From assembly GCF_013141825.1 (NCBI RefSeq), contig NZ_RZNH01000001.1:1-64000 (forward strand): 64,000 bases of DNA, in the 5' to 3' direction. The notes under the pieces are model-generated. The model ran no database searches and had not been told where the DNA came from. It saw only the letters and a program-made list of their open reading frames with translations. Both the position numbers and the translations under genes were made by a program. Shown in pieces: positions 7,067 through 31,701 of the stretch. Position 1 is the first letter of the stretch. Each line of letters starts with the position of its first letter. This DNA comes from Marinifilum caeruleilacunae (lineage in GTDB: Bacteria; Bacteroidota; Bacteroidia; Bacteroidales; Marinifilaceae).

Positions 7067-7148
7067 GCGGATGTGGCGTAATTGGTAGCCGCGCTAGACT
7101 TAGGATCTAGTGCCTTCGGGCGTGGGGGTTCGAGTCCCTTCATCCGCA
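7067..7148 (+). tRNA. tRNA-Leu (anticodon UAG)
   Basis: A cloverleaf can be drawn: acceptor GCGGATG/CATCCGC, anticodon stem CTAGA/TCTAG with loop CTTAGGA giving anticodon TAG, a long variable arm (TGCCTTCGGGCGT) as expected for type II leucine tRNAs, and T-loop GTTCGAGTC. The discriminator base is A. The 3' CCA is not encoded. It reads CUA codons. Confidence 0.95.
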
Positions 7149-19009: not shown

Positions 19010-19340
19010 AATGATTTCAACTATTTAAATTTTGACATTTAAACCAATTCTACGACGCAATTTATAAATGGTTATCTAAAAATCAACATTTTAAGTGTTA
19101 AAAATCATTAATTTAGAAGTAGTTGCGAACATAAAAAAGACAATTGTATCTTATTTAAACAAGAATAAATTTGTTGCTCATACAAAGGTGAAAATTATAA
19201 ATGCCTGTTTTTATCTTGCTAACATGATATAAGTAGCGGTTTTCTTCTAAAAAAATTACAAAATTGCCACGCAAAGGTTTGAAATGATAGGGATTGTAAA
19301 AAAAATACTTTTTCGTTAGGAATTTAATTTTTTTTGCCCT
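19010..19340. other. AT-rich divergent intergenic region
   Basis: The region between the small membrane-protein gene (minus) and the arginine-operon promoter (plus). It holds no gene I can support. CAAAGGTG near 19183 is one mismatch from a minus-strand -7 box. I looked for an ArgR-like palindrome just upstream of the arg promoter and saw none by eye. Confidence 0.5.
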
Positions 19341-19348
19341 TATCTTTG
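19341..19348 (+). promoter_or_regulatory. arginine operon promoter (-7 box)
   Basis: TATCTTTG, a perfect TAnnTTTG box, 23 bp before the first leader ORF. A T-rich segment around 19308 may serve as the -33. No other TAnnTTTG box occurs between here and the GNAT gene at 20005, so all four attenuators appear to sit in series on one transcript. Confidence 0.7.
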
Positions 19349-19370
19349 TAAGCAACAAATCAAAAAAAGT

Positions 19371-19421
19371 ATGGAAAAAGTAATAATCATTCGACGATGC
19401 ATGTTCAGATCTTTATTGTAA
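19371..19421 (+). CDS. arginine leader peptide 1
   Basis: A 16-codon ORF, MEKVIIIRRCMFRSLL, with adjacent CGA-CGA codons (19392-19397) and an AGA codon (19407-19409). It is followed 34 bp later by terminator hairpin 1. It is the first of four short ORFs that share arginine-codon clusters and a downstream hairpin ahead of the arginine genes. The role as a ribosome-stalling sensor of charged tRNA-Arg is inferred from position, codon content and the repeated layout. Confidence 0.7.
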   Translation: MEKVIIIRRCMFRSLL

Positions 19422-19454
19422 CGATAAGGACAAGTATTGGTATGATTTATTTCC

Positions 19455-19483
19455 AAGCTTTCCCATTCGGAAAGTTTTTTTTT
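19455..19483 (+). terminator. arg attenuator terminator 1
   Basis: AAGCTTTCC pairs with GGAAAGTTT (9 bp with one G-U pair) around CATTC, followed by T residues (nine-T run from 19475, its first bases pairing in the stem). A matching antiterminator is less obvious here than for stages 2 and 3. Confidence 0.75.
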
Positions 19484-19509
19484 GAAGTTTAATTTATAAA
19501 AAGAACCAA

Positions 19510-19596
19510 ATGATTCAATTGTTTTACATACGACGACGACGAATGAGCGCACCCCTGGGGAAAGCGGATTTAGTCTTATTGTCTTGTAATCAATGA
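19510..19596 (+). CDS. arginine leader peptide 2 (four consecutive Arg codons)
   Basis: A 28-codon ORF starting MIQLFYIRRRRMSAPLG. Codons 8-11 are CGA-CGA-CGA-CGA (19531-19542). After them the sequence CGGATTTAGTCTT (19565-19577) can pair with the 5' arm of terminator 2. A ribosome stalled on the CGA run would therefore leave that segment free and favour the antiterminator. The stop codon lies 17 bp before the terminator stem. Confidence 0.8.
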   Translation: MIQLFYIRRRRMSAPLGKADLVLLSCNQ

Positions 19597-19613
19597 TTAA
19601 GAACAATATTTAG

Positions 19614-19647
19614 AAGGCTTACCGTTTTCCCGGTAAGCCTTTTTTTT
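19614..19647 (+). terminator. arg attenuator terminator 2
   Basis: A perfect 11-bp stem AAGGCTTACCG/CGGTAAGCCTT around TTTTCC, followed by six further T residues. The 5' arm can instead pair upstream: AGTCTT (19572-19577) with AAGGCT, and CGG (19565-19567) with CCG. Confidence 0.9.
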
Positions 19648-19684
19648 GAAACATTGAAAAAACATTGAATTAAGAATACAAAAA

Positions 19685-19798
19685 ATGAAAAGTATAATCT
19701 TTACAGAAAGCCGCCGCCATTTGCGAAGTAACTGTTACCCTGGAGGGACGGATGAGCTTGCTGTATCTGATTGTCAGATATATTATAAATTGTATTAA
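19685..19798 (+). CDS. arginine leader peptide 3
   Basis: A 37-codon ORF. Codons 10-11 are CGC-CGC and codon 14 is CGA (SRRHLR; 19712-19726). The CCGCC around the Arg codons can pair with GGACGG at 19746-19751, giving a pause or protector hairpin. The alternative pairing of ACGG (19748-19751) and AGCTT (19755-19759) with the terminator arm gives the antiterminator. The stop codon TAA sits at the very foot of terminator 3. Confidence 0.75.
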   Translation: MKSIIFTESRRHLRSNCYPGGTDELAVSDCQIYYKLY

Positions 19799-19827
19799 GC
19801 TTACCGTTCCTACGGTAGGCTTTTTTT
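19797..19827 (+). terminator. arg attenuator terminator 3
   Basis: AAGCTTACCGT pairs with ACGGTAGGCTT (11 bp, one G-U pair) around TCCT, followed by a T tract. Its 5' arm can pair with ACGG and AGCTT upstream across a small internal loop containing TA, the same geometry as stage 2. Confidence 0.88.
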
Positions 19828-19853
19828 GTGTGAAATAGTTAAAACAAAATAAG

Positions 19854-19994
19854 ATGAAAACAAACAACTCCTTAAAATTCCGACGACGATGGTTTCGGAT
19901 TTTAAACAACAACAATTTAAAAGAAACATTCTTTATCGATATCAATAACAAATGGTTATGCCTAACTGGCGTAGCATTATTTTGGGAAACCTAG
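19854..19994 (+). CDS. arginine leader peptide 4
   Basis: A 46-codon ORF with codons 10-12 CGA-CGA-CGA and codon 15 CGG (FRRRWFR; 19881-19898). Unlike the others, its C-terminal part reads through hairpin 4 and stops only 10 bp before the GNAT start codon at 20005. Translation of leader 4 would thus both disrupt hairpin 4 and deliver ribosomes next to the first structural gene. Confidence 0.7.
   Translation: MKTNNSLKFRRRWFRILNNNNLKETFFIDINNKWLCLTGVALFWET
19955..19983 (+). terminator. arg attenuator hairpin 4 (weak terminator)
   Basis: GTTATGCC preceded by G pairs with GGCGTAGC (8 bp with two G-U pairs) around TAACT, followed by ATTATTTT. It is weaker than hairpins 1-3 and lies inside the reading frame of leader 4. 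Confidence 0.45.
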
Positions 19995-20004
19995 AGACTA
20001 AAAA

Positions 20005-20634
20005 ATGATAGATACATTCATGGAAGTTGAGCAAAAAATAAGTGTCATTGTAGCAGATTTGAGACATATTGATTATGCCTCGGAGATTTGTGAAATGATT
20101 GAAAGTGCTGCGAAAATACGCGGTACTGGAATTGCAAAAAGAAATCCTTTGTACATCGTACAAAAGATACAGGAAGGAAAAGCTGTCATTGCTTTTGATG
20201 ATTTAAAGGTTATCGGATTCTGTTATGTAGAAACCTGGGAACATGGCAAATATGTAGCCAATTCGGGTTTAATTGTTGATCCGGAATACAGAGCTGTGGG
20301 ATTAGCAAAACTAATTAAAGCAGAAGCATTTAAATTATCGAGAAAGCGTTATCCTCAGGCGAAAATCTTCGGTTTAACAACCAGTCTTCCTGTGATGAAA
20401 ATCAATTCGGATCTCGGATACCGACCGGTAACATTCTCGGAATTAACAACAGATGAGTCTTTTTGGAAAGGATGTAGTAGTTGTATTAACTATGATATCC
20501 TGCAAAGAACTGACCGAAAAATGTGCCTGTGCACTGGCATGTTATTCGATCCAAACAAGAATGGTACAAACAATCTGAGTGAAACAATCAAGCAATTCAA
20601 TCAATCAAAAGAAAAAAACGATGACAAGCAATAA
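20005..20634 (+). CDS. GNAT N-acyltransferase heading the arginine operon (ArgA-like)
   Basis: A 209-residue GNAT protein. The acyl-CoA-binding region is GLIVDPEYRAVGLAKLIKAEAF (about residues 90-113), and the N-terminal motif EICEMIESAAKIRGTGIAKRNP is seen in the Bacteroidota arg-cluster acetyltransferases. As first gene of an operon with argB, argC, argD and argE it probably makes the N-acyl-glutamate that starts the pathway, replacing a classical ArgA or ArgJ (inference; the acyl group could be acetyl or succinyl). A cluster of cysteines in the C-terminal third (CSSC, CLC) is unusual. ATG 20020 is an alternative start. The end overlaps argG by 14 bp. Confidence 0.8.
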   Translation: MIDTFMEVEQKISVIVADLRHIDYASEICEMIESAAKIRGTGIAKRNPLYIVQKIQEGKAVIAFDDLKVIGFCYVETWEHGKYVANSGLIVDPEYRAVGLAKLIKAEAFKLSRKRYPQAKIFGLTTSLPVMKINSDLGYRPVTFSELTTDESFWKGCSSCINYDILQRTDRKMCLCTGMLFDPNKNGTNNLSETIKQFNQSKEKNDDKQ

Positions 20635-21820
20635 GAAAAAAGTAGTATTAGCATATAGCGGAGGTTTAGATACAACATATTGTGCACTTTATCTTTCTAA
20701 GGAGTTGGGGATGGAAGTGTATACAGCATTAGGAAATACAGGCGGTTTTAGCAATGAAGAACTGTGTGAAATCGAAGAGAGAACCAAGCAATTGGGAGTA
20801 ATAGAACACGTATCGCTTGATATTACAAAGGAGTACTACGAAAAATGTATCAAATATATGATCATGGGTAATGTTCTGAAAAACAACACCTATCCATTGT
20901 CAGTTAGTTCGGAAAGAGCATTCCAGGCCATGGCCATTGCTCAATATGCTCACTCCATTAATGCAGATTATATTGCACACGGTAGTACAGGCGCTGGTAA
21001 TGATCAGATTAGATTTGATCTGATTTTTAAAATCATGGCACCTAATGCCGAAATTATAACCCCTACAAGAGATCTTGAATTAAGTAGAGAAAGCGAAATT
21101 CAGTATTTAAAGGATCATGGTATTGATGCCAACTTCGAAAAGATGAAGTATTCGATTAATGCTGGAATTTGGGGAACCAGTATAGGTGGTAAGGAAACCT
21201 TAACTTCGAGTCAGCCATTGCCAGAAGATGCATATCCAAAGCAAGTTGTGAAGAGCAATTCGGAAAAGTTAAGTATTGAATTTAAGGAAGGAGAATTGAT
21301 TGCCGTTAATGGTGAAAAAGTAAGTCACCCATTAGAGGCCATTCAAAAAATTGAACAGGCCGGAGCTGCCTTTGGAATAGGTAGAGATATGCACGTGGGT
21401 GATACCATTATTGGAACCAAAGGGAGAGTTGCTTTTGAGGCCGCTGCTCCTCTGATGATTATAAAAGCTCACGAAACACTGGAAAAGCATACGCTAACCA
21501 AATGGCAAATGTATTGGAAAGAACAGATATCCAATTTTTATGGGATGTTACTTCACGAAGCTCAATACCTGGAGCCAGTGATGAGAAATATGGAAACTTT
21601 TCTTGTTGATTCTCAAAAGAATGTGAATGGCAAAGTATTTATTAAAATGAGTCCGGAGCAGTTTTTGGTGGAAGGGATTGAATCTCCAAACGACTTAATG
21701 TCCGATTTATTTGGACAATACGGTGAAAGTAATGAGGGTTGGACCGCTGACGATGTAAAAGGCTTTACAAATATACTGGCCAATTCACTTAAAATTTATC
21801 ATACAGTAAATAAGCAGTAA
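20621..21820 (+). CDS. argG: argininosuccinate synthase
   Basis: A 399-residue enzyme that condenses citrulline and aspartate using ATP. The N-terminal PP-loop VVLAYSGGLDTTYC is at residues 8-21, HGSTGAGNDQIRF near residue 124 and the IWGTSIGGKE segment near residue 184. I start at ATG 20621, which gives the standard N-terminus just before the PP-loop; an upstream in-frame ATG at 20579 would extend into the GNAT gene. Translation is coupled to the GNAT gene through the 14-bp overlap. Confidence 0.95.
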   Translation: MTSNKKKVVLAYSGGLDTTYCALYLSKELGMEVYTALGNTGGFSNEELCEIEERTKQLGVIEHVSLDITKEYYEKCIKYMIMGNVLKNNTYPLSVSSERAFQAMAIAQYAHSINADYIAHGSTGAGNDQIRFDLIFKIMAPNAEIITPTRDLELSRESEIQYLKDHGIDANFEKMKYSINAGIWGTSIGGKETLTSSQPLPEDAYPKQVVKSNSEKLSIEFKEGELIAVNGEKVSHPLEAIQKIEQAGAAFGIGRDMHVGDTIIGTKGRVAFEAAAPLMIIKAHETLEKHTLTKWQMYWKEQISNFYGMLLHEAQYLEPVMRNMETFLVDSQKNVNGKVFIKMSPEQFLVEGIESPNDLMSDLFGQYGESNEGWTADDVKGFTNILANSLKIYHTVNKQ

Positions 21821-21822
21821 AG

Positions 21823-22788
21823 ATGATAAATGTTGGAATTATAGGTGGTGCAGGATATACTGCAGGTGAATTGTTGCGGATTCTTATCTGGCATCCAGAG
21901 GTAAAGATTGCATTTGTACAAAGTACAAGTCATGCAGGACAGCCAATCGCAAATGTACACAAGGATTTGCTTGGGGATACTGATTTAATATTTGCTAAAG
22001 CTGATTATACACTTGTTGATTTGATATTCATATGCTCAGGTCATGGCAAAACCAAAGCATTTTTAGAGCAAAACGAATTGCCAGAGAATCTTAAAATTAT
22101 TGATTTAAGCACAGATTACAGACCCAAAAATAATGATAAGGGATTTATTTATGGTTTGCCCGAATTGAATAAGGTATCAATCGCTAAAGCAGATAAAATT
22201 GCCAATCCGGGTTGTTTTGCAAGCTGTATTGAGTTGGGAATTCTTCCCTTGGCAGCAAGTGAAAAATTGCAAGAAGAAATCCATGTAAATGCCATTACTG
22301 GGTCTACAGGAGCTGGACAAAATCCCACTACAACTTCTCATTTTAGTTGGAAAAATAATAATGTGGCGGTGTATAAAGCTTTTACACATCAGCATCTGGC
22401 TGAAATCACTGAATCAATCCTTCAGTTGCAGCCCGAATACGAAAAAGCAATCAACTTTATACCGGTAAGAGGAAATTTTAGCAGGGGGATTATGGCTACA
22501 ATCTACACGGAATGTAATATGACTCTGGAAGAAGCAAAAGAGCTGTATCAGAACTATTATTCAGAGCATTCTTTTGTTTCTATATCGGATTCAATTCCCG
22601 ATGTAAAACAAGTAGTTAACACAAATAAATGTGTGTTGTATCTCGAAAAGCATGGAAATAAACTGATGATTATTTCGGTGATTGATAATTTGTTAAAAGG
22701 AGCATCGGGGCAAGCGGTTCAGAACATGAATGTCATGTTTGGATTGAATGAAAAAGAGGGATTAGGCCTGAAACCTATTGGTTTTTAA
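21823..22788 (+). CDS. argC: N-acetyl-gamma-glutamyl-phosphate reductase
   Basis: A 321-residue NADPH-dependent reductase, third step of arginine synthesis. The Rossmann motif GIIGGAGYTAGELLRIL is at the N-terminus, the catalytic cysteine is C131 in ANPGCFASC, and the C-terminal conserved NLLKGASGQAVQNMN is present. It begins 2 bp after the argG stop. The length is slightly short but typical for Bacteroidota ArgC. Confidence 0.95.
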   Translation: MINVGIIGGAGYTAGELLRILIWHPEVKIAFVQSTSHAGQPIANVHKDLLGDTDLIFAKADYTLVDLIFICSGHGKTKAFLEQNELPENLKIIDLSTDYRPKNNDKGFIYGLPELNKVSIAKADKIANPGCFASCIELGILPLAASEKLQEEIHVNAITGSTGAGQNPTTTSHFSWKNNNVAVYKAFTHQHLAEITESILQLQPEYEKAINFIPVRGNFSRGIMATIYTECNMTLEEAKELYQNYYSEHSFVSISDSIPDVKQVVNTNKCVLYLEKHGNKLMIISVIDNLLKGASGQAVQNMNVMFGLNEKEGLGLKPIGF

Positions 22789-22800
22789 AAAGAAAGAAAA

Positions 22801-23937
22801 ATGAAATTATTCGACGTATATAATTGTTACGATATCAATCTGGTTAACGGAAAGGGAATGAAACTTTCCGATGATAAGGGAAATCAGTATTTGGATTTTT
22901 ATGGTGGTCATGGTGTGATCTCGATTGGTCATTCACACCCCAATTACATGTTCAGAATTGAAAACCAATTGCATTGCCTGGGATTTTATTCCAATGCAGT
23001 AAGAAACGAATTGCAGGAAAAACTGGCTTGTAAGCTGGGAAAAATAAGTGGATATGATGATTACAATCTGTTCTTGTGCAATTCGGGAGCAGAGGCAAAC
23101 GAGAATGCCTTGAAAATTGCCTCTTTTCACAACAAAAAAGAAAAAGTAATATCGGTAAAAGGTGCATTCCATGGTAGAACTGGAGGTGCACTATCCATCA
23201 CAGACAACCCAAATTTGTCTTCATCTTTTAATGCTGAACACAATGTGGTATTTGTGGAAATGAATGACACTAAGCATGTGATAGAAGAACTTAGCAAAGG
23301 AGATGTTTCTGCAGTTATTGTAGAAGGCATTCAAGGGGTGAATGGTGTAATTGAGCCAACAATTGAGTTTCTAGAATCTATCAAATTGGCTTGTGAGCAG
23401 AATGAAGCTTTATTGATACTTGATGAGATTCAATCGGGCTATGGAAGAAGCGGTAAGTTCTTTGCACATCAGTACACAGGAATTCAACCGGATATTATTA
23501 CAAGCGCCAAAGGCATGGGAAATGGTTTTCCGATAGCTGCTGTATTAATATCGCCTGACATAAAAGCATGGAAAGGAATGCTGGGAACAACTTTCGGTGG
23601 CAATCATTTGGCTTGTGCTGCCGCAATGGCCGTTTTAGAAACCATTGAAGAGGAACAACTAATGAAAAACGCTTTGGAAATTGGAAGTTACCTACTGGAT
23701 AAATTAAAAGAGAATAAGAAGATAAAAGCAATAAGGGGGAAAGGATTAATGATTGGTCTTGACATGGAAAACATGTCAGAAATCAGAACGAAATTACTTA
23801 AGGAGCATGGAATATTTACCGGTTCCTCGGGAAAGGATACACTTCGCTTGTTACCGCCACTTTCGATAACAAAAGAAGAGGCAGACCAGTTTATTGAATC
23901 ATTAGAATGTGTTTTGGCTGGCACATGTGTGGCCTGA
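22801..23937 (+). CDS. argD: acetylornithine (or succinylornithine) aminotransferase
   Basis: A 378-residue class III PLP aminotransferase that makes N-acylornithine from the semialdehyde and glutamate. Motifs are NSGAEANENALKIA near residue 98, LILDEIQSGYGRSGKF near residue 204, and the PLP lysine in TSAKGMGNGFPIA near residue 238. It lies 12 bp after argC. Whether the natural acyl group is acetyl or succinyl cannot be told from sequence alone. Confidence 0.93.
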   Translation: MKLFDVYNCYDINLVNGKGMKLSDDKGNQYLDFYGGHGVISIGHSHPNYMFRIENQLHCLGFYSNAVRNELQEKLACKLGKISGYDDYNLFLCNSGAEANENALKIASFHNKKEKVISVKGAFHGRTGGALSITDNPNLSSSFNAEHNVVFVEMNDTKHVIEELSKGDVSAVIVEGIQGVNGVIEPTIEFLESIKLACEQNEALLILDEIQSGYGRSGKFFAHQYTGIQPDIITSAKGMGNGFPIAAVLISPDIKAWKGMLGTTFGGNHLACAAAMAVLETIEEEQLMKNALEIGSYLLDKLKENKKIKAIRGKGLMIGLDMENMSEIRTKLLKEHGIFTGSSGKDTLRLLPPLSITKEEADQFIESLECVLAGTCVA

Positions 23938-23970
23938 TACGAAATCGTAAAACCCAAATTGTAAACAGAA

Positions 23971-24747
23971 ATGAGCGAACTAACAGTAGTCAAAATTGGA
24001 GGAAATGTAATAGATGACCCAGAGAAGTTGAGTGATTTTTTGGAAGCATTTTCGAAACTGAGCGGCAAAGTTGTTTTGGTACACGGAGGAGGAAAACTAG
24101 CTTCGGATCTTTCAGGAGAACTAGGCATTCAAACAAAAATGGTAAATGGCAGAAGAATAACCGATGCCGAAAACCTAAAGTTAGTCACCATGGTATATGC
24201 CGGCTTGGTGAACAAGAATATTGTGGCTTCATTACAAGCCAGAGGTGTGAATGCCATGGGAATGTGCGGCGCTGATCAGGATTTAATCCTGGCCGAAAAG
24301 CGAAATCATCCGAGTATCGATTTTGGGTATGTGGGCGATATCACGAAAGTGAACACATTGGCCTTATGCAAGCAAATTGAGTGTAATTCTGTATTGGTTA
24401 TTGCCCCAATAACACACGATGGGAAAGGGCAATTGCTCAATACAAATGCTGACACAATAGCAACCGAGGTAGCTGCTGCTTTAAGCCGTTTCTATAAGGT
24501 AAAACTTGTGTATAGCTTCGAAAAGTTAGGTGTATTAATGGACTCAGAAGATGATAGCAGTGTAATGCCTGTATTAGATTCGAAAAAATGTGCCAAAATG
24601 ATAAAAGATGGCACGATTAACACAGGGATGATGCCGAAGACTGAAAATGCTTTTTATGCATTGAAACAAGGAGTTGAAGAGGTAATCATTGGCAACTTCG
24701 TCTCTATGGAGAACAATCATTCATCTGGAACGCAAATTATTCAATAG
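23971..24747 (+). CDS. argB: acetylglutamate kinase
   Basis: A 258-residue amino-acid kinase, the second step of the pathway. The phosphate-binding VVKIGGNVID is at residues 5-14, the substrate-binding VLVHGGGKLASDL near residue 34, and the C-terminal NTGMMPKTENAFYALKQGVEEVIIGN fits the family. No N-terminal extension of the arginine-inhibited hexameric type is present, so feedback inhibition by arginine may be absent or different. This would make the leader attenuation more important (inference). Confidence 0.93.
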   Translation: MSELTVVKIGGNVIDDPEKLSDFLEAFSKLSGKVVLVHGGGKLASDLSGELGIQTKMVNGRRITDAENLKLVTMVYAGLVNKNIVASLQARGVNAMGMCGADQDLILAEKRNHPSIDFGYVGDITKVNTLALCKQIECNSVLVIAPITHDGKGQLLNTNADTIATEVAAALSRFYKVKLVYSFEKLGVLMDSEDDSSVMPVLDSKKCAKMIKDGTINTGMMPKTENAFYALKQGVEEVIIGNFVSMENNHSSGTQIIQ

Positions 24748-24754
24748 AAAAGAA

Positions 24755-25819
24755 ATGAGTCTAACTAAATACAAAGATATCGCCCTAAGCATACTAAAAG
24801 AACTGATTTCAATTCAGTCCTTCAGCAAAGAAGAAAATCATGTAGCTGATTTGATGGAAAAGAAATTGGATGAATTTGGATACCAGGTTAACAGGGTAGG
24901 AAATAATGTATGGGTGTTCAATAAGGATTTTAAGGAAGGGCGACCAGTATTATTAATGAACTCTCACCTTGATACAGTTAAGCCGAATGAGAAATGGAGC
25001 AAAGATCCATTCACCCCAGAGGAAATTGAAGGCAAACTTTTTGGTTTGGGAAGCAACGATGCTGGTGGATGCCTGGTATCCTTAATGGCAACTTTTCTGG
25101 CTTTGGAGGAAACACAACAGGATTACAACAGGGTGTTTTGTGCCTCTGCAGAGGAGGAAATATCTGGTAAAAACGGATTTGAGCTGGTACAGGATAAAAT
25201 CGGGAGAATTGATGTGGGAATTGTTGGTGAACCTACCTTAATGGAAATGGCCATTGCTGAAAAAGGATTGATGGTATTAGATTGTGAAGCCAAAGGAGTT
25301 CCTGGACATGCGGCCAGAAATGAGGGTGTGAATGCAATTGGTGTAGCAATGAATGACATTGAATGGTTTCATACCTTCCAGTTTGAAAATGAATCGGAAA
25401 TGCTTGGTCCGGTTAAAATGACTGTAACACAAATTAATGCAGGGAAACAGCACAATGTAATTCCAGCATCATGCACCTATGTTGTTGATGTAAGAACCAA
25501 TGAGTTTTACAGCAACGAAAAAGCTTTTGAAATCATTGAGGAACATGTTGAGAGCACGGTAAGAGCAAGGTCATTCAGAATGAATTCATCTGGGATTTCG
25601 TTGGAACATCCTTTAATAAAGAAAGGACTTAAGCAGGGCATGAAGTATTACGGATCTCCAACGACATCCGACCAGGCAATTATGAAAGGGTTTCCAACAT
25701 TAAAATTAGGACCCGGAGATTCAGCAAGATCACATACTGCAGATGAGTTTATCTATATCAAAGAAATTGGGAAAGGCATCGAAAAATATTATAACTTGTT
25801 GAACGGATTAGAAATCTGA
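24755..25819 (+). CDS. argE: M20 family deacylase, acetylornithine deacetylase-like
   Basis: A 354-residue zinc peptidase-fold enzyme. Metal ligands are visible in NSHLDTVKP and GLGSNDAGGCL, the catalytic glutamate pair in ASAEEEISGKNG, and the C-terminal histidine in ARSHTADEF. It should remove the acyl group from acylornithine or acylcitrulline. The start at ATG 24755 is 7 bp after the argB stop; an in-frame ATG at 24689 would overlap argB by 59 bp and add no conserved sequence. Position in the arg operon supports the ArgE role over other M20 functions. Confidence 0.88.
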   Translation: MSLTKYKDIALSILKELISIQSFSKEENHVADLMEKKLDEFGYQVNRVGNNVWVFNKDFKEGRPVLLMNSHLDTVKPNEKWSKDPFTPEEIEGKLFGLGSNDAGGCLVSLMATFLALEETQQDYNRVFCASAEEEISGKNGFELVQDKIGRIDVGIVGEPTLMEMAIAEKGLMVLDCEAKGVPGHAARNEGVNAIGVAMNDIEWFHTFQFENESEMLGPVKMTVTQINAGKQHNVIPASCTYVVDVRTNEFYSNEKAFEIIEEHVESTVRARSFRMNSSGISLEHPLIKKGLKQGMKYYGSPTTSDQAIMKGFPTLKLGPGDSARSHTADEFIYIKEIGKGIEKYYNLLNGLEI

Positions 25820-25924
25820 TGGTAATTGATGGCTCGTACCTGATGGATTAATGAAGAAATAGCCAGATGTTATCACTTAAAACAAAAGCTTAAAAGAAAT
25901 AATAAACACCTAATATAATCGAAT

Positions 25925-27262
25925 ATGAAACTTTGGGACAAAGGCGTACAAGTTGACAAGAAAATTGAACAGTTTACGGTAGGTATGGACCGTGAATTAG
26001 ACCTTGAATTGGCAGCTTTTGATGTACTTGGATCACTTGCACACATCGAAATGCTACAATCTATTGGTCTGTTGGAAAAGAAAGAATTGAAATTAATTCA
26101 GGAAGAACTACGAAAAATCTATTCATCTATAAAAAACGATGCCTTTGTAATCGAAGATGGAATTGAAGATGTTCACTCCCAGATTGAATATTTACTGACC
26201 AATGCCTTGGGCGATATTGGAAAGAAAATCCATAGTGGGAGATCGAGAAATGACCAGGTTCTTCTTGATCTTAAGCTATTCACAAGGAATAAACTAGAGG
26301 AAATTGTTCGAGAGGCAAGATTGCTGTTCGATGAGTTGATCGAAAAAAGTAATACCTATAAAAATGTTCTGATTCCCGGATATACACACTTACAGGTGGC
26401 GATGCCTTCATCTTTTGGTTTGTGGTTTGGATCCTATGCCGAAAGTTTAACCGATGACCTTTTGGTGCTTCAGTCGGCCTATAAAGTGGTCAATCAGAAC
26501 CCATTAGGATCGGGAGCAGGTTATGGCTCTTCATTCCCATTAAACAGGCAAATGACAACTGAATTGTTGGGTTTTGATAACTTAAGCTATAATGTTGTGT
26601 ATGCTCAAATGGGTCGTGGAAAAATGGAATTTACCGTGCTATCTGCTTTAGCAAATATGGCAATGACCATTGCAAAATTGGCCATGGATGCCTGTTTATA
26701 CAACTCCCAAAACTTTAACTTCCTGAGTTTCCCTGATGAGCTAACCACAGGAAGCAGTATTATGCCTCACAAGAAAAATCCTGATGTTTTTGAGGTGATT
26801 AGAGCACATGCCAATGCATTACAAATGTTACCGGCACAAATTCAGGCAGTAACATCAAATCTTCCTTCCGGATATCACAGAGATTATCAATTGACCAAGG
26901 AATTCTTTATGCCTTCGTTTGACAAGATGCTCTCTTGTCTTGAAATGACCAGGATTATGCTATCGGAAGTTAAAATAAACGAAGAAGTACTGAATGATGA
27001 GCGATACAAATACCTGTTTACTGTTGAAGAAGTAAACAAGATGGTGGTAGACGGAGTACCATTTCGTGATGCATATAAAAAAGTAGGGCAACTTGTCGAA
27101 GCAGGTGAGTTTAATCATGAAGGCGAAATTGAGCATGTTCATGAAGGAAGTCTTGGGAATTTATGTAATGATAGAATTGTTTGTAAAATGAACGAAACAT
27201 TCGTTGCCTTTAACTTCCACAAAACCAAAGAAGCATATATGAATTTACTAAATAGAATTTAA
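25925..27262 (+). CDS. argH: argininosuccinate lyase
   Basis: A 445-residue fumarase-superfamily enzyme that splits argininosuccinate into arginine and fumarate, the last step. Motifs include DVHSQIEYLLTNALGDIGKKIHSGRSRNDQ near residue 85, PGYTHLQVAMPSSFG near residue 150 and the signature GSSIMPHKKNPD near residue 277. It follows argE after a 105-bp gap with no clear promoter or terminator, so I treat it as the last arg gene of the same unit. Confidence 0.95.
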   Translation: MKLWDKGVQVDKKIEQFTVGMDRELDLELAAFDVLGSLAHIEMLQSIGLLEKKELKLIQEELRKIYSSIKNDAFVIEDGIEDVHSQIEYLLTNALGDIGKKIHSGRSRNDQVLLDLKLFTRNKLEEIVREARLLFDELIEKSNTYKNVLIPGYTHLQVAMPSSFGLWFGSYAESLTDDLLVLQSAYKVVNQNPLGSGAGYGSSFPLNRQMTTELLGFDNLSYNVVYAQMGRGKMEFTVLSALANMAMTIAKLAMDACLYNSQNFNFLSFPDELTTGSSIMPHKKNPDVFEVIRAHANALQMLPAQIQAVTSNLPSGYHRDYQLTKEFFMPSFDKMLSCLEMTRIMLSEVKINEEVLNDERYKYLFTVEEVNKMVVDGVPFRDAYKKVGQLVEAGEFNHEGEIEHVHEGSLGNLCNDRIVCKMNETFVAFNFHKTKEAYMNLLNRI

Positions 27263-27324: not shown

Positions 27325-28410
27325 ATGTCACAACAGACAAAAGCAAAGCTAATTTTACAAGATGGATCAGAATACGTCGGTACATCTTTTGGGTATGAGG
27401 GCTCCGTGGCAGGAGAGATGGTGTTTAACACTGCAATGACCGGTTATCCGGAAAGTTTGACTGACCCTTCTTACAAAGGGCAGATTTTGGTGAGTACTTT
27501 CCCATTAATTGGGAATTATGGTGTTCCGGGAACTTTGCAAGAAGACGAATTGTTCCGATTTTATGAATCAGAGAAGATACAGGTATCTGCCTTTATTGTA
27601 TCTGATTACACGGAAGAATTCAGTCATTGGAATGCAAGTTTAAGCCTGGCAGATTGGATGAAAGATCACAAAATTCCAGGGATTTATGGGGTTGATACCC
27701 GTGCACTTACCAAAAAACTAAGAGAACAGGGGAGTATGCTTGCAAAAATTGTTTTTGAAGGCAAGGAACCAGAATGGAAAGATCCAAACCTTGAAAATTT
27801 GGTTGCGCAGGTAAGCACACCAGAGAAGAAGGTATATGGTGAAGGAAAGCACAAGGTTCTTTTATTGGATTGTGGTGTGAAAAACAACATCATCAGATGT
27901 CTTTTAAAGCGAGATACAACCGTTATTCGCGTTCCACATGACTACGACTTCAGCCAGGAAGATTATGATGGCTTATTCATTTCAAATGGCCCTGGAGATC
28001 CAAAGCAAAATACAGCTGCCATAGCGAATTTAAAGAAAGCTTTCCAACAGAAAACTCCAATTATGGGAATCTGTCTGGGTACACAATTAATGGCTTTGGC
28101 CGCAGGAGCCGATACCTACAAATTAAAGTACGGACATAGAAGTCACAATCAACCAGTAGTTCTCCAGGGAACCAAACGTTGTTTCATTACCTCTCAGAAT
28201 CATGGGTATGCCATTAATAATGAAACTTTACCACAAGAGTGGGAACCATTATTTATTAATGCTAACGACAATACCTGTGAAGGAATTAAGCATGTGAGCA
28301 AGCCATTTTTCGCCTCTCAGTTTCATCCTGAAGCATCAAGTGGTCCGACCGATACAGAATTCCTTTTTGATGATTTCATTGAAATGATGGAAAAACATCA
28401 AGACAACTAA
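27325..28410 (+). CDS. carA: carbamoyl-phosphate synthase small subunit
   Basis: A 361-residue glutamine amidotransferase subunit that supplies ammonia to CarB. The N-terminal CPSase domain has FNTAMTGYPESLTDPSYKGQ. The class I glutaminase domain has SNGPGDP, the nucleophile in MGICLGTQLMA and the His-Glu pair in SQFHPEASSGP. It sits after argH and before carB. Carbamoyl phosphate feeds both citrulline and pyrimidine synthesis; linkage to the arg block suggests the arginine branch is dominant for its expression. Confidence 0.96.
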   Translation: MSQQTKAKLILQDGSEYVGTSFGYEGSVAGEMVFNTAMTGYPESLTDPSYKGQILVSTFPLIGNYGVPGTLQEDELFRFYESEKIQVSAFIVSDYTEEFSHWNASLSLADWMKDHKIPGIYGVDTRALTKKLREQGSMLAKIVFEGKEPEWKDPNLENLVAQVSTPEKKVYGEGKHKVLLLDCGVKNNIIRCLLKRDTTVIRVPHDYDFSQEDYDGLFISNGPGDPKQNTAAIANLKKAFQQKTPIMGICLGTQLMALAAGADTYKLKYGHRSHNQPVVLQGTKRCFITSQNHGYAINNETLPQEWEPLFINANDNTCEGIKHVSKPFFASQFHPEASSGPTDTEFLFDDFIEMMEKHQDN

Positions 28411-28458
28411 CAATTCGTAATTTAAAATTATCAATTAACAGTATAGAGCGTAAAAGAA

Positions 28459-31400
28459 ATGATTAAAGACAAGATAAAGAAGGTACTCGTATTGGGTTCA
28501 GGAGCCCTTAAAATTGGTGAAGCTGGCGAATTTGACTATTCCGGATCGCAGGCATTAAAAGCCATGAAAGAGGAAGGTATTCATACCGTATTGATCAATC
28601 CGAATATTGCAACCGTTCAAACTTCCAAGGGAGTTGCCGATCAGATTTACTTTTTGCCGGTTACTCCCTTTTTTGTGGAGCAAGTAATTTTAAAAGAAAA
28701 ACCTGATGGAATTCTGTTGGCGTTTGGTGGACAAACTGCGCTAAATTGCGGGGTTCAATTGTTCGAATCGGGTATTCTGGAAAAGTACAAGCTAAAGGTT
28801 CTGGGTACGCCTATCGAAGCAATTATCAAGACTGAGGACAGAGAAATATTTGCAAACGAGCTGCGTAAAATCGATGTAAAAACACCACAATCTTATGCAG
28901 TATCAACCGTTCAGGGAGCATTAGATGCAGCAGAGAAAGTAGGTTTTCCAATTATTGTTCGTGCGGCCTTTACTCTAGGTGGACAAGGGTCTGGCTTCTG
29001 TTCCAATACGGAAGAGCTGAAAAAACTAGCTGAGAACGCTTTATCCTATTCGAACCAGATTTTGGTTGAAGAGTCACTAAAAGGATGGAAAGAAGTAGAG
29101 TACGAGGTGGTTCGTGATGCTTATGACAATTGTATTACGGTATGTAATATGGAAAACTTCGATCCACTTGGTATCCATACGGGAGAAAGTATTGTAATTG
29201 CTCCATCACAAACATTAACCAATTCGGAGTATCATAAGCTAAGAGCCCTGGCCATTAAAATCATCCGTCATATGGGTGTTGTTGGTGAATGTAACGTTCA
29301 GTATGCGCTCGATCCAAATTCAGAAGATTATCGTGTGATTGAGGTAAATGCACGTCTGTCGAGATCGTCGGCATTGGCTTCGAAAGCCACCGGTTATCCA
29401 TTGGCCTTTGTAGCCGCCAAACTGGGTTTGGGATACGCGCTTCATGAGCTTAAAAATACAGTAACTCAAACCACTACAGCATGTTTTGAGCCTGCGCTCG
29501 ACTATGTGGTTTGTAAGATTCCACGTTGGGATTTGAACAAATTCGAAGGGGTAACCAAAGAGATTGGTTCAAGCATGAAATCGGTAGGTGAGGTTATGGC
29601 AATTGGTCGTAATTTCGAGGAAGCGATTCAAAAAGGCCTTCGAATGATCGGACAGGGAATGCATGGATTTGTTGGCAATGTCCATTCCAAATTTGAGGAT
29701 GTTGATAAGGAACTTACTCATCCAACCGATATGCGTATTTTCTCCATTGCACAAGCTTTTGAAGAAGGTTACAGCATCGATCAGGTACACGACTTAACTA
29801 AGATCGATAAATGGTTCCTAAGCAAATTGGAGCATATTACGAAAATAAAGTGGGATCTTCAAAAGCATAATAACTTACAGCATCTACCTAATGAATTGCT
29901 TAAAGCGGCTAAAGTATATGGATTTTCTGATTTCCAGTTGGCAAGATTCATACTGAAGCCTGAAAATACCAATATGGAATCGGAATTGTTGGCGGTAAGA
30001 AAGCATCGTAAACAAAAGGGAATTGTTCCTGTTGTGAAGCAAATTGATACCCTTGCAGCAGAGTATCCTGCACAAACCAATTACATTTATCTTACTTATA
30101 GTGGAGATGAAAATGACATCGACTATGTAGCCGATAACAAATCAGTTATTGTTTTGGGATCTGGCGCTTATCGAATTGGTTCATCGGTTGAGTTTGACTG
30201 GTGTAGTGTGAATGCACTAAATGCAGTAAATAAAGAAGGTTTACGATCGGTAATGATCAACTATAATCCGGAAACGGTAAGTACCGATTACGATGTTTGC
30301 GACAGATTGTATTTCGATGAGTTGTCCTTCGAAAGAGTATTGGATATTATCGATTTGGAATCGCCAAGAGGTGTAATTGTATCGGTAGGAGGACAGATAC
30401 CAAATAACCTGGCTATGCGCTTGCACAATGCAGATGTAAAGGTGTTGGGTACTTCTCCAGAATCGATTGATAGGGCAGAGAACAGACAAACTTTCTCTGC
30501 CATGTTAGATGAGTTGGGTGTAGATCAGCCAAGATGGAGTGAGCTTACTAGTATAGACGCTATTCACGAATTTATTGATGAAGTGGGATTTCCGGTCTTG
30601 ATTCGTCCGAGCTATGTTCTTTCTGGTGCTGCCATGAACGTGGTTTCGAACCGCGAGGAGTTAGGACACTTCCTGAATCTTGCAGCACAAGTATCAAAAC
30701 AATACCCGGTAGTTGTAAGTGAATTTATACAGGAAGCCAAAGAGATTGAGTTCGATGGAGTAGCCAAGAATGGCGAAATTGTAATTGATGCCATTTCGGA
30801 GCATGTTGAGTTTGCCGGTGTACACTCCGGAGATGCAACCTTGGTATTCCCACCACAGAAATTGTACTTCGAAACCATTCGCAGAATCAGGAAAATTGCT
30901 CGTAAAATTGCAAAATCGCTTGATATTACCGGACCTTTTAATATGCAGCTTCTGGCAAAAGATAACGACATTAAGGTAATTGAGTGTAACCTTCGCGCCA
31001 GTCGTAGTTTTCCGTTTGTTTCGAAAGTTATGGACTTTAATTTTGTGGAAACAGCAACCCAGGCCATGTTGGATGTTCAGATTCCGAACAATCTTCCTTC
31101 CATGTTTGAGTTGGAGCATATCGGAGTAAAAGCATCCCAATTCTCCTTCTCGAGATTGTCGAAAGCCGATCCAGTTTTGGGTGTAGACATGTCTTCGACA
31201 GGCGAAGTTGGATGTTTGGGTTCAGATTATTACGATGCGATATTAAAATCAATGATATCAGTTGGTTATAGAGTGCCGAAGAAAGCTGTATTAATTAGTA
31301 GTGGTCCTATTCGCTCAAAGATTGAACTTTTAAAGAGTTCAAAAATGCTGGAAGAGCGTGGATACAAGCTTTACGGAACGCGAGGTACTGCAAAATTCCT

Positions 31401-31701
31401 TCAGGAAAATGGAGTGAGTGTGGAAGCGGTGGCATGGCCAGATGAAAATGAAAAGAAAACGGCAGTGAGTTTGATTCGCGATCACGAGGTTGATTTGGTA
31501 ATTAACATCCCAAAGAACCTAAGCAAAGATGAATTGAACAATGATTATCAGATCAGACGTTCTGCCATCGACTTAAATGTTCCCTTGGTTACCAATGCCC
31601 GTTTGGCATCAGCATTCATCTATTCCATTTGCAAAAAGTCGGAAACCGATCTTAAAATAGAGAGTTTTAGCGATTACGTAGAGCAAAAACAAGATTGGTA
31701 A
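28459..31701 (+). CDS. carB: carbamoyl-phosphate synthase large subunit
   Basis: A 1080-residue subunit of normal length. It has two ATP-grasp halves: the first starts KVLVLGSGALKIGEAGEFDYSG, the second near residue 560 with SVIVLGSGAYRIGSSVEFDWCSV, which is the internal duplication typical of CarB. The C-terminal MGS-like allosteric domain lies at about 945-1060 (KAVLISSGPIRSKIELLK, LYGTRGTAKFL). It is 48 bp after carA and followed by a very strong terminator that closes the block. Confidence 0.97.
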   Translation: MIKDKIKKVLVLGSGALKIGEAGEFDYSGSQALKAMKEEGIHTVLINPNIATVQTSKGVADQIYFLPVTPFFVEQVILKEKPDGILLAFGGQTALNCGVQLFESGILEKYKLKVLGTPIEAIIKTEDREIFANELRKIDVKTPQSYAVSTVQGALDAAEKVGFPIIVRAAFTLGGQGSGFCSNTEELKKLAENALSYSNQILVEESLKGWKEVEYEVVRDAYDNCITVCNMENFDPLGIHTGESIVIAPSQTLTNSEYHKLRALAIKIIRHMGVVGECNVQYALDPNSEDYRVIEVNARLSRSSALASKATGYPLAFVAAKLGLGYALHELKNTVTQTTTACFEPALDYVVCKIPRWDLNKFEGVTKEIGSSMKSVGEVMAIGRNFEEAIQKGLRMIGQGMHGFVGNVHSKFEDVDKELTHPTDMRIFSIAQAFEEGYSIDQVHDLTKIDKWFLSKLEHITKIKWDLQKHNNLQHLPNELLKAAKVYGFSDFQLARFILKPENTNMESELLAVRKHRKQKGIVPVVKQIDTLAAEYPAQTNYIYLTYSGDENDIDYVADNKSVIVLGSGAYRIGSSVEFDWCSVNALNAVNKEGLRSVMINYNPETVSTDYDVCDRLYFDELSFERVLDIIDLESPRGVIVSVGGQIPNNLAMRLHNADVKVLGTSPESIDRAENRQTFSAMLDELGVDQPRWSELTSIDAIHEFIDEVGFPVLIRPSYVLSGAAMNVVSNREELGHFLNLAAQVSKQYPVVVSEFIQEAKEIEFDGVAKNGEIVIDAISEHVEFAGVHSGDATLVFPPQKLYFETIRRIRKIARKIAKSLDITGPFNMQLLAKDNDIKVIECNLRASRSFPFVSKVMDFNFVETATQAMLDVQIPNNLPSMFELEHIGVKASQFSFSRLSKADPVLGVDMSSTGEVGCLGSDYYDAILKSMISVGYRVPKKAVLISSGPIRSKIELLKSSKMLEERGYKLYGTRGTAKFLQENGVSVEAVAWPDENEKKTAVSLIRDHEVDLVINIPKNLSKDELNNDYQIRRSAIDLNVPLVTNARLASAFIYSICKKSETDLKIESFSDYVEQKQDW

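Follow-up and report, generated by a model that had tools for sequence, protein, structure and literature searches.

What controls an arginine operon that opens with four short reading frames carrying clusters of arginine codons, in a genome in which we found no match to the arginine repressor ArgR? We examined this question in Marinifilum caeruleilacunae, using positions 1 to 64,000 of contig NZ_RZNH01000001.1 (the 64,000-nucleotide stretch referred to here as the window). The four open reading frames (ORFs) lie between a promoter-like box and a gene for a GNAT-family acetyltransferase (hereafter GNAT), which is the first gene of the operon. A preliminary description of the window had proposed that all four encode leader peptides of arginine attenuators acting in series. 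Our comparative and folding analyses point to a mixed arrangement instead: modules 1-3 are probably three serial ribosome-mediated attenuators, and the fourth leader would gate translation of GNAT, all behind the single promoter-like box.

The predicted promoter spans 19316-19348 on the forward strand, which also carries every other feature of the locus given below. It consists of TTAG (19316-19319), which we take to be the -33 element in place of the Bacteroidota -33 TTTG, and the -7 box TATCTTTG (19341-19348). As the preliminary description had stated, this box is the sole exact TAnnTTTG in the leader region, and no second one occurs in 19349-20004. Four ORFs follow, all starting with ATG: leader 1 (MEKVIIIRRCMFRSLL, 19371-19421), with arginine codons CGA CGA ... 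AGA; leader 2 (MIQLFYIRRRRMSAPLGKADLVLLSCNQ, 19510-19596), with four CGA codons; leader 3 (MKSIIFTESRRHLRSNCYPGGTDELAVSDCQIYYKLY, 19685-19798), with CGC CGC ... CGA; and leader 4 (MKTNNSLKFRRRWFRILNNNNLKETFFIDINNKWLCLTGVALFWET, 19854-19994), with three CGA codons and a CGG at 19881-19898. The arginine-codon clusters reported earlier are thus present as described. When 19349-20004 was shuffled 5000 times with dinucleotide content preserved, arginine-codon ORFs numbered none in 3705 shuffles, one in 1138, two in 150, three in 6 and four in a single shuffle. CGA accounts for 57%, 75% and 41% of the arginine codons in leaders 1, 2 and 3; across 40 genes of the window its share is 14%, and AGA is the commonest arginine codon (41%). 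CGA is read slowly by inosine tRNA, and the preference for it in leaders 1-3 is perhaps due to this slow decoding. In the window, leaders 1, 2 and 3 end in TAA, TGA and TAA, respectively. A scan of the window at Rfam gathering scores matched no known RNA family in the leader region; a tRNA at 7067-7148 was its only hit, and the T-box model was unmatched. Tandem duplication, which we considered as the origin of the modules, is unsupported, because the modules of the window have only short stretches in common.

The same arrangement recurs in relatives. Searches with the GNAT protein found it in 5 of 6 genomes of the genus and in 44 of 57 genomes of the family Marinifilaceae, and we oriented all 44 family loci by tblastn and inspected their upstream regions. 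All 23 GNAT loci of six genera (the window's included) carry four arginine leaders and terminator-like hairpins 1-3 (hereafter terminators), and each of these loci has a single TAnnTTTG-type box at the corresponding place, about -650 to -750, followed by the array. A search upstream of GNAT in relatives for repeated arginine ORFs with terminators had been suggested in the preliminary description, and it recovered both the arginine codons and the first three hairpins at every one of these loci. Spacers vary among the 23 loci; the ORFs, their arginine codons and the terminators are kept. An alignment of the 22 distinct stack sequences (L011 and L012 are the same) also revealed in-frame gaps within the arginine runs of leaders 1 and 2. 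A filtered count, which is cut at long frames and accepts every ORF, gave fewer than four leaders at 4 of the 23 stack loci and more than four at 2, whereas the per-locus listings show four at each. The array is absent from the other seven GNAT-bearing genera of the family (21 loci, with one candidate leader at one of them by the filtered count), and at 19 of these 21 loci a TAnnTTTG box lies within about 60 nucleotides of GNAT. Finally, the pattern of leader 3 was found in 18 stretches of a named genome collection, in a list that may omit the window's own record: 17 came from Marinifilaceae (six Marinifilum, seven Labilibaculum, two Ancylomarina and two without a genus) and one from a record titled as a Proteobacteria metagenome-assembled genome (MAG). 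Cultured relatives with the stack include Marinifilum fragile JCM 15579 (L154) and M. flexuosum DSM 21950 (L152).

In each of modules 1-3, a terminator is faced by a competing helix. Terminators 1 (19453-19483), 2 (19613-19647) and 3 (19796-19827), each with a T-run, have helices that are paired in 94.7%, 98.8% and 96.2% of alignment cells, respectively. The 5' strand of the putative antiterminator lies within or just after each leader, and its partner is the 5' arm of the terminator. In module 1, AAGTATTGG (19432-19440) pairs with CCAAGCTT of terminator 1; in module 2, AGCGGA and GTC (19563-19575) pair with the 5' arm of terminator 2; and in module 3, ACGGATGAGCTTG (19748-19760), made up of the codons of TDEL, pairs with terminator 3. 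These antiterminator helices are paired in 85.7%, 96.1% and 96.7% of cells for modules 1, 2 and 3, compared with 71%, 58% and 51% in the best register obtained by sliding one to three columns. Module 1 additionally has a hairpin, TCTTTATTGTAACGATAAGGA (19410-19430), that spans the stop codon of leader 1; its columns are largely conserved, and its fold was predicted in several of the displayed rows, not in every one. The ratio of nonsynonymous to synonymous differences per site (pN/pS) is 0.66, 0.50 and 0.47 for leaders 1, 2 and 3. Within leader 3, the stretch SRRH..DEL has a pN/pS of 0.23 with a low pS of 0.28, which, as expected, fits bases that would also be held by pairing.

We then modeled the switch by folding the free RNA with a ribosome placed at each arginine codon or at the stop codon, on the assumption that it covers 13 nucleotides starting at the A-site codon; this folding does not include module 2 of L007. 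Capture of the terminator 5' arm was assessed on transcripts reaching the terminator apex, for a ribosome occupying the final codon of the first arginine run, with 60 shuffles of the intervening RNA for each. Under these conditions, predicted capture in the stalled state averaged 0.77, 0.74 and 0.94 for modules 1, 2 and 3, compared with 0.47, 0.51 and 0.52 after shuffling, and it ranked in the top 5% against shuffles in 10, 5 and 20 of 22 sequences, respectively. Predicted capture in module 2 was at most 0.02 with the ribosome at the stop codon and 0.67-0.94 with the ribosome stalled (16 rows computable). For module 3, the models predict an antiterminator that is favored by stalling. The folding evidence for attenuation is therefore strong in module 3 and moderate in modules 1 and 2.

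Several of these results weigh against attenuation at all three modules. Modules 1 and 2 exceed their shuffles in only a minority of sequences (the 10 and 5 of 22 given above), and in the window this holds for module 3 alone (p = 0.23, 0.10 and 0.00 for modules 1, 2 and 3). In module 1 of the window, predicted capture is 0.52 with the ribosome at the stop codon and 0.60, 0.60 and 0.91 when stalled. Capture at the stop codon in this module is 0.44-0.49 in the window's close relatives L002-L007 and 0 to 0.7 in other rows (0.70 in L013); module 1 is the least clear of the modules in these models, as the arm is not predicted to be released at the stop codon in Marinifilum-type rows. In the fully transcribed RNA, the terminator is dominant in many rows despite a stall (0.93-0.96 for module 2 in L008-L023), which means that switching would need to depend on the kinetic order of events; in the window, module 1 opens clearly only for a stall at its AGA codon (0.35 vs 0.90). 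The stop codon of leader 3 abuts or passes terminator 3, which leaves the stop state computable in only 1 of 22 rows, and in 4 of 22 rows (L002, L003, L005 and L006) the leader 3 frame reads through the terminator. Covariation adds little: column shuffles match the observed values in nearly all measures for terminators and antiterminators alike, and double compensatory changes are almost absent from both kinds of helix in modules 1-3. With a terminator 5' arm that must fit either of two partners, one would expect wobble changes for the most part. Support from the alignment for these helices is thus preservation in register rather than covariation, which is a weaker kind of support.

These points raise the alternative that only one or two modules are functional, that the others are inherited spacer sequence or duplicates that drift has retained, and that leader 4 encodes a small protein with no part in control. 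The antiterminator signals of modules 1 and 2, which are weaker than that of module 3 and not above shuffles in the window, would fit such a view, as would the occurrence of fewer leaders in relatives from another family (two at L045, two or three at L160) and the mostly single candidates of other Bacteroidia, which are described below. This explanation has difficulty, however, with the retention of four arginine-codon ORFs and three terminators at all 23 loci of six genera despite varying spacers, with the in-frame gaps in the arginine runs of leaders 1 and 2, and with the preservation of terminator and antiterminator helices in all three modules; we consider it unlikely. Serial attenuation by modules 1-3 is supported because the arginine codons, the terminators and a competing helix are conserved and no ArgR match was found in the clade; we consider it likely, with the best support in module 3. 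The proposed mechanism would run as follows. When charged tRNA-Arg is plentiful, ribosomes would clear the arginine codons and cover the antiterminator strand, the terminator would form, and a share of the polymerases would be removed at each unit. When arginine is short, ribosomes would stall on the arginine codons, which are mostly CGN, and the antiterminator would capture the emerging 5' arm of the terminator, letting polymerase pass. Units in series would multiply the repression ratio and require stalling at three sites, which could give a steep response from one promoter and no repressor protein.

Leader 4 appears to be of a different kind. Its C-terminus and TAG stop codon (19941-19994) show constraint on the amino acids: the last 17 codons (INNKW to the stop) have a pN/pS of 0.13 with a pS of 0.63, compared with a pN/pS of 0.61 for the N-terminal part, and GNAT in the same genomes has values of 0.17 and 0.61 for pN/pS and pS, respectively. 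The stop codon is TAG in 22 of 22 aligned sequences (A4 columns 55-57; 19992-19994 in the window), and the distance from the end of leader 4 to the next ATG is 7-17 nucleotides in the 23 loci (10 nucleotides before GNAT in the window). All 22 aligned leader 4 ORFs contain 4-6 arginine codons. In one genus (g2), these codons are scattered rather than in a run, which counts against the role proposed below for leader 4, and the C-terminus is kept. A homologue of leader 4 that shares its ending (...LNNKWLSLNAVCLFWET) is located directly before GNAT at L160, in another family of the order. In a protein database, the window's leader 4 has four relatives and the L160 form matches one protein; those with names are called hypothetical proteins. 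These comparisons show that the C-terminus of leader 4 is under strong amino-acid constraint, a mark by which a regulatory or arrest leader peptide may be recognized.

The preliminary description had counted a fourth hairpin with a T tract (19955-19983) alongside the other three, and had accordingly treated leader 4 as a fourth attenuator sensing tRNA charge; its terminator would then have to be a weak one. Such a unit would account for the arginine codons in all 22 aligned sequences, and a hairpin with a T-run passes the terminator filter at this place in 8 of 23 clade loci. In the window, the fourth hairpin fails the filter that finds the other three; the consensus fold over the 22 sequences is only -0.6 kcal/mol, which is no conserved fold; and the amino acids are constrained while synonymous sites are free to change. 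We rejected leader 4 as an attenuator of the same type, since it is without a conserved terminator and has instead a constrained C-terminus ending just before GNAT, and we regard a weak fourth attenuator as quite improbable. Thus, of the hairpins and attenuators first proposed, those of modules 1-3 are supported (the folding evidence being strong for module 3 and moderate for modules 1 and 2), and the fourth is not.

We infer from the position and constraint of leader 4 that it would serve as a translational gate on GNAT. With the next ATG taken as the start of GNAT, leader 4 could couple or block initiation there, either through a stall at its arginine codons or through its nascent C-terminus. 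A more specific version makes leader 4 an arginine-sensing arrest peptide, fed by three serial arginine-tRNA attenuators: its conserved C-terminus (NNKWL-LT-VALFWE) would hold the ribosome on the stop codon and close the initiation site of GNAT. We put this forward tentatively and as doubtful. The fungal arginine attenuator peptide is likewise conserved in sequence, belongs to the arginine pathway and ends upstream of the gene it controls, though it is eukaryotic and differs from leader 4 in sequence. A measured precedent for an arginine-codon leader that sits where the following gene begins is Staphylococcus aureus rbfL, where, as that report describes it, stalling at low arginine represses rbf by covering its ribosome-binding site (PMC13009471). 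As given there, rbfL is a single unit of eight residues, in contrast to the 46 residues and conserved C-terminus of leader 4 (PMC13009471).

Could the operon instead be controlled at its promoter, by an unknown arginine repressor that has replaced ArgR, with the leader merely tuning expression? At four family loci without the array (L025, L026, L027 and L035), all in ArgR-bearing members, a palindrome, TGCATAAATATTT...AAATATTTATGCA, lies over the TAnnTTTG box at about -50 to -60 from GNAT. This palindrome is perhaps an ArgR operator, and its presence before GNAT in several ArgR-bearing relatives (e.g., L025-L027) would be in keeping with promoter control. Visual inspection of the aligned stack promoters, however, showed no such palindrome, and none of the 24 genomes searched in the stack genera (including G003, which has no GNAT match) gave an ArgR match, other regulators not having been searched for. 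Together with the strong conservation of the leader elements, this makes a promoter repressor very unlikely in our view. The same ArgR search matched 9 of 14 control genomes, Bacteroides among them, and 24 of the 33 remaining family genomes. Among the 21 family GNAT loci that lack the array, 14 belong to genomes in which ArgR was matched; the remaining seven belong to five MAGs of one genus (64-84% complete), one genome 66% complete and one 97% complete. In a sample of 395 genomes of the class, ArgR scored above the cut-off in 16 (12 from the same order, three from a single other family, and a marginal one), and four further genomes had weak matches. By eye, many loci of the order have an ArgR-like gene immediately upstream of GNAT.

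Outside the family, the picture is one of fewer leaders. GNAT was found in 93 of 295 genomes sampled from the order, and 11 of the 94 order loci inspected had a candidate arginine leader, near the 8.5% expected from shuffles; the filter asks for three arginine codons in eight and misses both leaders of L045, which hold fewer. In the class sample, GNAT was present in 135 of 395 genomes, 122 of them outside the order (two with marginal matches), and we inspected one locus from each of 88 of these 122, chosen largely from the highest-scoring matches. At least one candidate arginine leader occurred at 59 of these 88 loci (L165-L252; one candidate at 52 and two at 7), compared with 10% expected. 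A separate listing gives 61 class loci with a candidate, only 15 of which have a terminator in range by the filter. Class candidates are often about 40 residues long with C-terminal arginine codons (e.g., ...SRRRLFIPRV at L199). Perhaps a single arginine leader is widespread in Bacteroidia that lack ArgR, and the array looks like an elaboration of Marinifilaceae.

Sequences from a genus of another family (g79) hold what we read as intermediate forms of the array. One of its genomes (G351, L160) has a leader of the leader 4 type and at least one more leader, accompanied by a terminator (two or three leaders in all), and gave no ArgR match at 82% completeness. Another (G222) has ArgR beside one GNAT (L159) and a second GNAT operon, GNAT-argC-argD-argB-argE (L045); this second operon has two leaders, and its promoter carries a palindrome. 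In a GNAT tree, the stack rows group with L045 and the long-branch L115 (SH-aLRT 98), apart from the other family rows. This separation led us to set aside, provisionally, a purely vertical descent of the operon in the family. Transfer or old paralogy of the stack operon is likely on this tree, which covers 137 of 138 rows, was built by a quick method and has 50 of 130 inner branches weak.

How does the array compare with known systems? Attenuators of the Escherichia coli type that control trp, his and leu operons normally have one leader per operon. They share with modules 1-3 a short ORF with codons for the end product, followed by mutually exclusive antiterminator and terminator helices before the biosynthetic genes; they differ in having one leader and other amino acids, where the present locus has three arginine units in series and a different fourth leader. 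The thrZ gene of Bacillus subtilis has a triple T-box leader, in which one gene is preceded by several successive terminators that sense tRNA charge. Unlike the units described here, a T-box recognizes tRNA by direct binding and requires no leader ORF, and the window had no Rfam T-box match. The preliminary description knew of no such stack, and our literature search likewise found no description of an arginine leader stack, most subscription journals being outside its reach.

The nearest published tandem is that of Salmonella mgtCBR, in a 2012 paper that also describes the trp attenuator and calls its tandem of leader-ORF attenuators sensing two signals, ATP and proline, singular (PMC3641672). 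The two systems share serial leader ORFs, two in mgtCBR, one of which senses charged tRNA-Pro (PMC3641672). As presented there, mgtCBR responds to two signals through stem-loops unlike intrinsic terminators, whereas the Marinifilum array would respond to one amino acid through terminator-like hairpins with T-runs (PMC3641672). Within the same phylum, the part of the Flavobacterium psychrophilum transcriptome study that deals with leaders reports strong clues for leader-peptide attenuation before amino-acid operons (PMC9723704). These may include arginine, though that part names no arginine operon (PMC9723704). The arginine-leader candidates that we found across the class are mostly single and most are without a terminator by the filter, unlike the array, and the single-leader form may be partly known already. 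A 2010 survey of premature terminators contains neither "arginine" nor "Bacteroid-" in its main text (PMC2965389).

The genes behind the leaders agree with the assignments made at the outset. GNAT (20005-20634; PF00583 above cut-off) is followed by argG, argC, argD, argB, argE and argH (20621-27262), all with Pfam matches, that of argE being to an M20 deacylase; NCBIfam cut-offs are reached by argC, argB and argH and missed by GNAT, argG, argD and argE. Directly 3' of argH on the same strand lie carA and carB (27325-31701), completing the order GNAT-argG-argC-argD-argB-argE-argH-carA-carB. carA has a Pfam match and reaches its NCBIfam cut-off, and carB is assigned from position and translation alone; both are possibly part of the arginine operon. 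Elsewhere in the same genome, no arginine leader was found in the 3.5 kb examined at an ornithine-carbamoyltransferase-like gene on another contig (G000:C95, L139), and at the pyrB locus (L140) two ORFs pass the arginine-leader scan on the same strand as the gene, behind pyrB. A look for other amino-acid leaders with terminators in the window gave three weak matches (two for phenylalanine and one for proline).

Leader-peptide attenuation is a textbook mechanism, and an array of this kind lets serial units be tested for whether they give a larger repression ratio or a sharper threshold. If the arrest-peptide version were true, the leader would sense charged tRNA-Arg in transcription and arginine in translation, an all-RNA replacement for ArgR. 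With genera that lack an ArgR match and intermediate forms in a genus of another family, the array suggests how a repressor can be dispensed with. The candidates before GNAT in class loci outside the order suggest that arginine leaders are possibly a common, little-described layer of control.

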